This document shows, piece by piece, positions 12,195 through 14,969 of a DNA stretch of 41,591 bases. The DNA is taken from positions 22,127-63,717 of the forward strand of contig JAEMPV010000032.1 in NCBI GenBank assembly GCA_022759145.1, written 5' to 3'. The position numbers were made by a program, and so were the translations under genes. The first letter of the stretch is position 1; each line of letters begins with the position of its first letter. The notes under the pieces are model-generated. The model had not been told where the DNA came from. It saw nothing but the letters and a program-made list of their open reading frames with translations, and made no database searches. The stretch comes from Caldisericum sp. Its GTDB lineage: Bacteria; Caldisericota; Caldisericia; Caldisericales; Caldisericaceae.

Positions 12195-13142
12195 TTAATC
12201 CTCCATCACCAAATTATAAGCAAAGTTGAATAATAACCTCCTATACAGTATTATCAAATAATGGTCGCTTATAAGATTTACCAACTTTGCAGTGCCTATT
12301 GCATCTCTAAGTGCAATGGTTGACTCCTTTGGAAAAATCTCATCAAAAATTGCACGGAAAAGAACTACTTTTCTTCCCCTTATAAGAGGCGCAAAAGTAA
12401 GAGGGTCAAAAAGGAAGCACCTCTTTTTAAACTCAATTTTTTCAATATCTTCAGTATTCTTAATTAACCTGAGGATATCTGGAAAATCTTTATGTATTTC
12501 TTTACACTTTTCGTATGTGCAGCCGTAACTTTCGTAAGTTGTCTCGGTTTCGTACTTCTTTCTTATTAGCCTTGTTGCAAGGCTTTTCCAAACAATGTAC
12601 TCGTGATTGCCGCCGGTTACTACAAGCATTCCATTTCTAATCCTTTTGTCTACTCCCATTAAAATTGTTCCTATTATTCCCCCAAAGCTAAAACCCATCA
12701 AAGTAAAGCCCTTTTCACCAAATCCATTTTTCTCAAGATGGTTCATAAGTGCCCTTATATCTAAAATTGCCTGTCTATAATCCCTTATGGACTCTTCAAT
12801 GTCGTCTGTTAAAAATTTTTCTCCGTCTTTTATCCCTTTAACCCTTCTTTCATAGTGGAAGGGCAATATAGGCATTAAAAGCGGTATTCCAACTTTTGCG
12901 AATCTAACGCCAAAATATTCGAGGTGTTTTACATTTCTTTTCCCCATTCCATGCAATAATATAACAACCCTGTCGAAGTTACTTTTCGACGGAAGGAATA
13001 GATATCCAATGTTAATATCGTTTTCTTTGTATCCTGATTTAATTAAACTCGGAGAAGTGATTTTAATGATTTGGTAGTCCTTATTCGCTTTGTATTCCTC
13101 TTCTCTAAATTCTATTTTTGTGTTAGGTAGGTCGTAAATCAT
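12195..13142 (-). CDS. Alpha/beta hydrolase of unknown substrate
   Basis: 315 aa from the ATG at 13142. An upstream in-frame TTG (13160) is less likely because its first codons coincide with a -10 box. The fold is recognisable: oxyanion-region HGMG (64-67), nucleophile elbow GFSFGG with Ser152, a candidate acid in FDEIFP and a candidate His in SDHYLI near the C terminus. It resembles dienelactone-hydrolase/acyl-peptidase-type serine hydrolases with an insertion in the lid region. There is no signal peptide, so it is cytoplasmic. With the -10 at 13149-13154 the mRNA would begin at or next to the ATG, making it a leaderless transcript. The substrate cannot be inferred. Confidence 0.82.
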   Translation of the reverse strand: MIYDLPNTKIEFREEEYKANKDYQIIKITSPSLIKSGYKENDINIGYLFLPSKSNFDRVVILLHGMGKRNVKHLEYFGVRFAKVGIPLLMPILPFHYERRVKGIKDGEKFLTDDIEESIRDYRQAILDIRALMNHLEKNGFGEKGFTLMGFSFGGIIGTILMGVDKRIRNGMLVVTGGNHEYIVWKSLATRLIRKKYETETTYESYGCTYEKCKEIHKDFPDILRLIKNTEDIEKIEFKKRCFLFDPLTFAPLIRGRKVVLFRAIFDEIFPKESTIALRDAIGTAKLVNLISDHYLIILYRRLLFNFAYNLVMED

Positions 13143-13148
13143 AAAAAT

Positions 13149-13154
13149 ATTATA
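13149..13154 (-). promoter_or_regulatory. -10 box for the hydrolase operon, probably leaderless
   Basis: The minus strand reads TATAAT at 13154-13149. Initiation about 7 bases downstream would fall on the ATG at 13142. No clear -35 is present at 16-18 bases. It lies 30 bases from the oppositely oriented -10 of the tRNA promoter. Confidence 0.5.
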
Positions 13155-13161
13155 AACCAAT

Positions 13162-13189
13162 TTGATAAAAAAGTATCTTTTTATATAAT
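13162..13189 (+). promoter_or_regulatory. Promoter of tRNA-Ser and downstream genes
   Basis: TTGATA (13162-13167), 16-base spacer, TATAAT (13184-13189). The predicted start lies at about 13196-13197, the first base of the tRNA itself, so the 5' leader would be minimal or absent. Confidence 0.7.
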
Positions 13190-13196
13190 ATCCCTT

Positions 13197-13286
13197 GGAG
13201 AGGTGGCTGAGCGGTTGAAAGCGCCTGACTCGAAATCAGGTAGAAGGGTAACCTTCTCGTGGGTTCAAATCCCACCCTCTCCGCCA
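13197..13286 (+). tRNA. tRNA-Ser (anticodon CGA)
   Basis: Ninety bases including an encoded 3' CCA (13284-13286). The acceptor stem GGAGAGG (13197-13203) pairs with CCTCTCC (13276-13282). The anticodon stem CCTGA/TCAGG flanks a loop with anticodon CGA at 13231-13233, reading UCG serine codons. A long variable arm (AGAAGG/CCTTCT) is the class II feature of serine tRNAs, and the T stem GTGGG/CCCAC encloses TTCAAAT. The discriminator is G13283, as in other serine tRNAs. A flavoprotein gene starts 7 bases after the CCA. Confidence 0.97.
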
Positions 13287-13293
13287 GAAAAGT

Positions 13294-14409
13294 ATGGAAA
13301 ACTACGATGTTATTATTGTTGGTGGAGGTCCTGCAGGTTCAACTCTTGCCCATTTTTTGGGTAGTTATGGTATTAATTCGGTTGTTTTAGAAAAAGGAGT
13401 ACCTTTTAGAGATAAAGTTTGTGCTGGTGGGCTCCCTAAAGGAATTTTTGATATTCTCCCTGAGAGTGTCGATAAAAACTTTGATTATGTTTCTTACAAG
13501 ACTTTCAGGGTATTTTATAAAGGTGAAATTGCAGCAGAGACCGAATTAAAAGAACCCTTTGCCTTTGGCGTTATGCGAAGCCAATTTGATGAGCACCTTA
13601 GAAAAGGGGTAAATGTTAAGTATCAAGAGAAATTTATTTCTTTTGAGGAAGATAAGAGTGGTGTCTTTGTAAGAACTGACAAAAATGCCTATTCTGGAAA
13701 AATTCTGGTCGGTGCAGATGGTATTGGAGGGCTTGTATCTATCCTTTCGGGGCTCAATAAAAAAACCAAAATTATCATCGCGGAAGAAAAAGAAATCCCT
13801 AAAAAAGACCACGAAAGCAGTTTGAATGTTTTCCTGGGAAATTTTGCATTAGGCTACGGATGGAAATTTGACAAAAAAGATGTAACTTCAGTTGGAGCAG
13901 GTGCCCTTAAAAGGTATTATAGAAAAGGTTTTTCAAATTTTGTTGATAAGACAAGAGCACCAACAAAAGTCTATCCTATTTCTCTTTGGGATAGAGATGA
14001 GAATATTGCAAAAGGAAGAGTTGTTCTTGTTGGAGAGGCTGCATCAATTGTTGATCCATTTAGTGCAGCAGGCATTTATCATTCGATCCTTTCCTCGAAA
14101 ATTCTTGCAGAATCCATTAAGGAAAGCTTTGATAAAGGAAATATTTCTTTTACTGACTATATAGAAAAACTTAATAATTCAATCTTTGATGAATTTAAAT
14201 ATGCAGGTATTCTTTCGAGTGCATTTTATCCAATGCTTCCTCTTTTAAAGAGAGTTGTTTTTAAACCTCATATACTTGAATTTATTTTAGAAGCGCAGAA
14301 TGAAACTGGGTACTTATCTTATAAAAAAGTATTTGAAAGATTCTCAAAATCGAGTCATTTAGAGGTAAGAATTGCCTTGGGAATACTTAAGTTACTTAAA
14401 ATTGTATAG
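13294..14409 (+). CDS. FAD-dependent geranylgeranyl-reductase-family oxidoreductase
   Basis: 371 aa. The N-terminal FAD-binding Rossmann motif is VIIVGGGPAGS (7-17), followed by the family's Cys-Gly-Gly motif in DKVCAGGLPKG and the FAD-contacting LVGEAASIVDPFSAAGI stretch (about 247-263). These place it in the geranylgeranyl reductase/FixC-like group, which saturates isoprenoid double bonds in lipids or quinones or acts in electron transfer. The substrate is not determined by sequence. There is no Shine-Dalgarno sequence. The ATG is 7 bases after the tRNA-Ser CCA, and the GGGPAG position shows that this start is right, so tRNA processing would leave an almost leaderless mRNA. It is followed by a small membrane protein and an ABC exporter. 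Confidence 0.85.
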   Translation: MENYDVIIVGGGPAGSTLAHFLGSYGINSVVLEKGVPFRDKVCAGGLPKGIFDILPESVDKNFDYVSYKTFRVFYKGEIAAETELKEPFAFGVMRSQFDEHLRKGVNVKYQEKFISFEEDKSGVFVRTDKNAYSGKILVGADGIGGLVSILSGLNKKTKIIIAEEKEIPKKDHESSLNVFLGNFALGYGWKFDKKDVTSVGAGALKRYYRKGFSNFVDKTRAPTKVYPISLWDRDENIAKGRVVLVGEAASIVDPFSAAGIYHSILSSKILAESIKESFDKGNISFTDYIEKLNNSIFDEFKYAGILSSAFYPMLPLLKRVVFKPHILEFILEAQNETGYLSYKKVFERFSKSSHLEVRIALGILKLLKIV

Positions 14410-14417
14410 GAGGAATT

Positions 14418-14969
14418 ATGAAAAGGAACCTTAAAATGGCAGTTTTTGTTCTTTTTGCTTTAGTCTCTATCTTTTACAGGCTTATTCCATTGAAGTTACC
14501 AAATGCCGAGTTTTTTTCAAGTCTTATTGCTTTTACAATACTCTCTTCAGATAAGAAGATAAATCTTCTTTTAATTCCTTTTCTTATTCTTATCTCAGAC
14601 ATTCTTTTAAATGTTTTTTTAAAGGTGCCCTTTGATCCAAGATGGGAGGCAATTGTCCTTGTTGGTTGGATTTTGGTAATTGTTACTCAGTATGTTTTAA
14701 GAGGTAAGAAATTTTATAATGTGATTACGATGGAACTTACTGGCACGCTTGTTTTTTATTTTATTACGAATAGCCTTGTGTTTTTCATGTTCAACTTTTA
14801 TCCAAAAAACATTTCAGGGTACATTACATGTATGATTGCAGGAATCCCATTTTTAAGAAATCAGGCACTATTCAATCTGCTTTTCTCGCTTATAGTATTT
14901 GCAACTGTTAACGAATTGGGCTTTGGGAAGGTTGCATCGAAAAGAATTGTAAATTATGAAAACCCTTAA
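14418..14969 (+). CDS. Integral membrane protein, DUF6580-like
   Basis: 183 aa, mostly hydrophobic with about five membrane segments (near 8-24, 32-66, 76-92, 103-125 and 150-168). The spacing and an N-terminal pattern of a short helix followed by RLIPLKLPNAEF resemble DUF6580 and ECF-transporter S-component-like proteins, but I cannot confirm this by eye. The ATG has GGAGG five bases upstream. It begins 9 bases after the flavoprotein and overlaps the ABC exporter gene by 14 bases, so all four genes are probably co-transcribed. A role in small-molecule uptake is inference only. Confidence 0.75.
   Translation: MKRNLKMAVFVLFALVSIFYRLIPLKLPNAEFFSSLIAFTILSSDKKINLLLIPFLILISDILLNVFLKVPFDPRWEAIVLVGWILVIVTQYVLRGKKFYNVITMELTGTLVFYFITNSLVFFMFNFYPKNISGYITCMIAGIPFLRNQALFNLLFSLIVFATVNELGFGKVASKRIVNYENP

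Follow-up and report, generated by a model that had tools for sequence, protein, structure and literature searches.

The stretch of DNA analyzed here (41,591 nucleotides, referred to as the window), which comes from Caldisericum sp., a member of a heat-loving bacterial lineage, raises the question of how a protein-coding gene is expressed when its ATG lies 7 nt behind a tRNA gene and the intervening space holds no Shine-Dalgarno (SD) sequence. The gene in question encodes a flavoprotein, follows tRNA-Ser(CGA), and precedes the genes of an ABC exporter. The features of the locus, in window positions, are the following.

12195..13142, minus strand: divergent hydrolase-like gene, with ATG at 13142 and TTG 13160 in frame too
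13162..13167, plus strand: -35 box TTGATA, from the promoter scan
13184..13189, plus strand: -10 box TATAAT, ending 7 nt 5' of the tRNA
13197..13286, plus strand: tRNA-Ser(CGA) with encoded CCA (ARAGORN; Rfam tRNA, 63.9 bits)
13287..13293, plus strand: 7-nt gap GAAAAGT from CCA to ATG, the predicted leader of the released mRNA
13294..14409, plus strand: FAD-dependent oxidoreductase of the geranylgeranyl-reductase / FAD_binding_3 kind, 371 aa (the flavoprotein)
14418..14969, plus strand: DUF6580 protein, 183 aa
14956..16665, plus strand: ABC exporter half-transporter, 569 aa
16662..18380, plus strand: ABC exporter half-transporter, 572 aa

The sequence confirms the anatomy given in an earlier note on this DNA, in which ATG 13294 follows the CCA of tRNA-Ser(CGA) by 7 nt. 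ORFs of matching lengths and in the same order follow the flavoprotein gene in two related genomes (G003 and G001). The flavoprotein scored 138.2 bits against TIGR02032, under the cut-off of 158.8 bits, and is a relative of this geranylgeranyl reductase family, not a certified member. The promoter upstream of the tRNA (TTGATA-16-TATAAT, 13162-13189) agrees with the consensus at 11 of 12 bases and was the top-scoring site in the region. Its -10 box ends 7 nt before G13197, the first base of the tRNA, and transcription therefore likely starts at or near this base; TATAAT is found 7 nt 5' of tRNA-Ser(CGA) in G003, G001, and G004 too. The earlier note had the promoter firing at the first base of the tRNA. 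The position of the -10 box agrees with this, while the start itself, which we infer from the spacing, carries a leeway of about 1 nt. Upstream of ATG 13294 the open frame extends over just 42 nt, without any in-frame ATG, GTG, or TTG. The flavoprotein enters its dinucleotide-binding motif (MENYDVIIVGGGPAG) at residue 5, and when aligned with nine relatives it matches each of them from residue 1 or 2 onward. A later start codon, which had been named as evidence against the earlier reading, did not hold up, as it would cut the fold; by the reading frame, ATG 13294 is the sole possible in-frame start of the flavoprotein.

The 3' tail of the 16S rRNA was read from the genome of the window (G000) and from G003 and has the sequence GGATCACCTCCTTTCT. 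The best duplex between this tail and the leader of the flavoprotein gene amounts to -2.5 kcal/mol in G000 and -2.1 kcal/mol in G003. The leaders of G001 and G004 reach a borderline value of -4.8 kcal/mol, with AGAAAG pairing to the extreme 3' end of the 16S rRNA, very near the ATG. Background genes, collected with a simple ORF picker and with the best candidate start taken for each, gave median values of -9.7 kcal/mol (131 genes, G000) and -9.3 kcal/mol (171 genes, G003). Values weaker than -4 kcal/mol were found for 18 of the 131 genes of G000, the flavoprotein gene among them, and for 32 of the 171 genes of G003, which is 14-19% of the sample. The lineage mostly uses strong SD sequences, and the flavoprotein gene belongs to an SD-less minority in which it is not unique. 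In a gap of less than about 10 nt, the lack of an SD is in part a matter of geometry. The reading that cleavage at the 3' end of the tRNA would leave a 7-nt leader without an SD agrees with the anatomy and with the value of -2.5 kcal/mol, and it is strengthened by the conservation of the junction in the genus and its recurrence at other genes described below.

An ortholog of the flavoprotein is encoded in 12 of 18 genomes of the family, and tRNA-Ser(CGA) lies just upstream of it in seven of the 12; in the other five, no tRNA was found in the upstream flank that was read. The gap is 7, 7, 8, and 8 nt in the four same-genus genomes with the gene (4/4). Three genomes of two sister genera (G007, G008, and G013) keep the tRNA, but with spacers of 34, 29, and 16 nt that hold an SD (-15.9, -10.0, and -9.8 kcal/mol, respectively). 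The simplest reading would be that the SD-bearing spacer was lost in this genus, or was gained by the others. The constancy of the gap within the genus is weak evidence and not by itself proof of selection, because the gaps of SD-bearing tRNA-gene junctions are equally kept between G000 and G003 (e.g., 14/14, 22/22, and 26/26).

The flanks of all 46 tRNAs of G003 and of the 48 ARAGORN calls of G000 were inspected. Beyond tRNA-Ser(CGA), two short junctions without an SD are common to both genomes, namely tRNA-Trp/secE and tRNA-Ser(TGA)/phosphodiesterase. The distance from tRNA-Trp to secE is 7 nt in both G000 and G003, and 5-7 nt in all 17 genomes of the family with a secE match (5 nt in two, 6 nt in 12, and 7 nt in three). 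The identity of SecE is supported by TIGR00964 (43.7 bits, cut-off 27.55). The secE leaders of the family are always SD-less, with values of -2.5 or -3.2 kcal/mol. The junction of G008 was missed by the simple gene picker and was seen in the targeted reading of the family. On its 5' side tRNA-Trp (L060:219-294, L093-L109) borders a gene named rpmG from the reading of its C-terminal sequence. In 12 of the 17 genomes the rpmG stop codon TAG overlaps tRNA-Trp, its A and G serving as bases 1 and 2 of the tRNA, and in the remaining five the stop ends 1-2 nt 5' of the tRNA. Where the tRNA end is shared in this way, cleavage by RNase P would thus strip the rpmG stop codon of two letters and leave it incomplete; incomplete stop codons arise likewise in animal mitochondria. 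An SD-like sequence just 5' of tRNA-Trp (AAGGAGGT) was considered as an SD acting across the folded tRNA and was rejected, as it encodes the conserved C-terminus of L33 (HKEVK) and has no counterpart at tRNA-Ser(CGA).

Among the other families of the class, 10 of 17 genomes matched the strict tRNA-Trp pattern. In one of these families (f3, three genomes) secE begins 6, 8, and 10 nt after tRNA-Trp without an SD, and the rpmG stop overlaps the tRNA in two genomes and abuts it in the third. A second family (four genomes) has a distance of 21 nt and an SD of -11.5 kcal/mol, and a third (three genomes) has distances of 11, 11, and 17 nt and SDs of -6.3 to -9.4 kcal/mol. In other groups, the tRNA-Trp pattern was matched by 14 of 38 genomes, 10 of the 14 with a SecE-like ORF behind the tRNA. 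These ORFs start 13-154 nt after tRNA-Trp; some of them, mainly in Verrucomicrobia, also lack an SD.

The phosphodiesterase gene (PF01663) starts 10-12 nt after tRNA-Ser(TGA) in all five genomes of the genus (12 and 10 nt in the two genomes inspected throughout); no same-strand tRNA was present in the flank read in three other family genomes with the gene. Family f3 shows four further SD-less junctions. In G019 these are tRNA-Met/tilS (5 nt), tRNA-Arg(ACG)/uvrA (5 nt), tRNA-Leu(TAG)/PpiC-like (6 nt), and tRNA-Ser(TGA)/TGS GTPase (8 nt), and in G023 the same four have gaps of 5, 5, 6, and 11 nt. Pfam domains back the assignments of the GTPase (TGS) and of UvrA (UvrA_inter), and point to a PP-loop ATPase as the product of tilS; the designations TilS and PpiC-like come from reading the sequences. 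The remaining tRNA-gene junctions of these genomes carry ordinary SDs at 10-60 nt. The counts of short gaps exclude two SD-less cases, a 122-aa ORF 24 nt behind tRNA-Leu(CAA) in G008 and one with a 16-nt gap behind a tRNA-Gln in G019, and the tRNA-Arg(ACG) junction of G007 was counted as SD-bearing, a better start with an SD being present at 24 nt. The tRNA-Gln(CTG) case of G019 (L235) is an ORF beginning with MCGRF, which we take to be an SRAP-like N-terminus. Short junctions of a tRNA with an SD-less gene thus recur in two families, at secE behind tRNA-Trp and at no fewer than five further genes of the class, and a short gap in itself does not set the flavoprotein/exporter operon apart. The argument is carried by the family-wide distance of 5-7 nt at secE and by the recurrence at unrelated genes, both of which weigh more than the conservation within the genus. 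For tRNA-Ser(CGA) itself, the anatomy, the conservation, the recurrence, and the lack of an SD are matters of observation: the feature pointed out in the earlier note is real and conserved, and its scope is wider than the flavoprotein/exporter operon.

Initiation without an SD appears to be at home in this lineage. A -10 hexamer lies 3-8 nt before the start codon in 6 of 32 SD-less genes of G003 and in 3 of 18 of G000, as compared with 1 of 105 and 1 of 93 SD-bearing genes, respectively. This enrichment suggests that true leaderless mRNAs are likely to exist among the SD-less genes. The divergent hydrolase gene of the window is one such candidate: TATAAT (13149-13154, minus strand) ends 6 nt before its ATG 13142, the spacing is 6 or 8 nt in all four same-genus genomes read, and the mRNA looks leaderless. 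Ribosomes that handle leaderless mRNAs could also read the leader of 5-12 nt left by removal of a tRNA.

With regard to the processing enzymes, the RNase P RNA is present in both G000 and G003. No canonical RNase Z was found above the cut-off in G000, G003, G007, and G008, and RNase E/G was not found in G000 and G003 (two of two genomes). A 252-aa protein of the metallo-beta-lactamase fold was rejected as an RNase Z, since its score of 63.8 bits falls short of the cut-off of 292.95 and its best relatives of solved structure are hydrolases of other kinds. The RNase Z of Thermotoga maritima is reported to cut just downstream of the encoded CCA (PMC7479834); a cut of this type would leave a leader of 5-12 nt at the junctions described here. 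The CCA is encoded in all 46 tRNAs of G003. In several of them (L031, L032, L036, L037, L039, L044, L046, and L047) a run of at least five T directly follows the CCA, perhaps as a terminator or a processing signal that uses the tRNA stem; the SD-less junctions of the genus have no such run. Three of the tRNA calls of G000 lack the encoded CCA present in the other 45 (L051:2295-2370, L072:1770-1919; contigs C101 and C8, about 3 kb each), and these may represent mobile DNA or contamination.

The most probable answer to the question raised by the locus is tRNA punctuation, in which the mRNA is made together with the tRNA, is freed with a leader of 5-12 nt by cleavage at the tRNA 3' end, and is read by a leaderless-type route. 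One promoter would transcribe tRNA-Ser(CGA) and the flavoprotein/ABC-exporter operon, since the gap leaves no room for a terminator or a second promoter. While the tRNA is attached, initiation should be poor, because the AUG lies 11 nt from the folded acceptor stem and an SD is absent. A candidate endonuclease would then cut at or next to the encoded CCA and free the tRNA, and the released mRNA would have a leader of about 7 nt, or of 10 nt if the cut falls at the discriminator. On this mRNA the ribosome would start by the leaderless or short-leader route, which is apparently used for other genes of the lineage. The same device may be at work at the tRNA-Trp/secE junction throughout the family, and at additional genes of the second family. 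Co-transcription, the cut site, leaderless-type initiation, and the dependence of translation on the cut are predictions from the sequence. Only tentatively can a wider proposal be made, namely that two families use tRNAs as punctuation for mRNAs including those of secE, tilS, and uvrA, that 3' processing licenses the downstream translation, that RNase P takes two letters of the rpmG stop, and that, on one and the same RNA, maturation of the tRNA and translation of its two neighbors are mutually exclusive or impose an order on each other.

A rather unlikely alternative, which still deserves to be taken seriously, is compaction without function. Deletion would have put ORFs beside tRNAs, the 30S subunit would bind weakly and independently of an SD at an A/U-rich start, and cleavage of the tRNA would have no special role. 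Loss of a spacer in the genus is plausible, because the sister genera have the longer, SD-bearing form of the tRNA-flavoprotein junction, and the conserved gap lengths of SD-bearing junctions, as well as the 14-19% of sampled genes without an SD stronger than -4 kcal/mol, are in line with it. However, conserved housekeeping genes such as secE, tilS, and uvrA are unlikely to tolerate weak initiation, the secE junction is held at 5-7 nt across the whole family, and a tRNA folded at a distance of 9-16 nt from the AUG would be expected to impede binding of the 30S subunit. It is improbable that a separate, unrecognized promoter inside the tRNA gene gives the flavoprotein mRNA a 10-30-nt leader. 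The scan of tRNA-Ser(CGA) and of the 7-nt gap gave no sigma-70-like site, although it was a sigma-70-like scan that promoters for other sigma factors would escape; furthermore, the function of the tRNA itself dictates its sequence, and such a leader would still include the pyrimidine-rich acceptor strand and lack an SD. Initiation directly on the tRNA-ORF fusion before any cut, with the acceptor stem in the place of the SD helix on the 30S platform and the tRNA as a landing structure, is hardly credible, for although the stem-to-AUG distance is confined to about 9-16 nt (9-11 nt at secE) in the short-gap SD-less cases of two families, the connectivity is unlike that of an SD helix, the mature tRNA needs to be released anyway, and we know of no precedent for an acceptor stem as a 30S landing structure.

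By comparison with known systems, these junctions would be classed as bacterial tRNA-mRNA co-transcripts with mitochondria-like punctuation. Punctuation by tRNAs was reportedly described for animal mitochondrial transcripts by Ojala et al. in 1981. As in that system, tRNAs are wedged between ORFs of the same strand almost without spacer (tRNA-Ser(CGA) on its 3' side only, tRNA-Trp on both sides), their excision would yield nearly leaderless mRNAs, and the rpmG stop draws its final two letters from tRNA-Trp. The 5' ends of mitochondrial mRNAs lie 0-3 nt from the start, whereas the leaders and gaps here are predicted to be 5-12 nt and fall outside this range. Unlike in mitochondria, only a few tRNAs are involved, most genes have strong SDs, and the RNase P RNA is bacterial; judged from sequence alone, there is no sign of stop completion by polyadenylation of the mitochondrial type. 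A bacterial tRNA-mRNA operon is known in thrU-tyrU-glyT-thrT-tufB of Escherichia coli, where the ORFs have their own spacer and SD. The present tRNA and ORF may share one promoter in the same way, but the flavoprotein gene has no SD of its own; it is the SD-bearing junctions of the lineage that match the tufB type. No bacterial tRNA-mRNA junction of the SD-less kind was found in the literature searched, which mostly left subscription papers outside, and absence from print is not claimed. In leaderless bacterial mRNAs, initiation takes place without an SD at or near the 5' end (PMC3160421, PMC4633059); the 5' end proposed here would come from cleavage of a tRNA and not from a transcription start at the AUG. 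A toxin mRNase of E. coli is reported to make leaderless mRNAs post-transcriptionally (PMC3848588). The resemblance is that an endonuclease is proposed to create a short-leader mRNA, with the difference that here it would act in constitutive tRNA maturation and not as a stress toxin.

Gene finders that demand an SD or mask the flanks of tRNAs may misplace starts of this kind. If the proposed punctuation is true, the conserved junctions would provide natural short-leader mRNAs for testing how ribosomes start independently of an SD, and bacteria would have their own counterpart to the punctuation model of mitochondria. Maturation of the tRNAs would then be obligatory for the expression of SecE, TilS, UvrA, and the flavoprotein/exporter operon.
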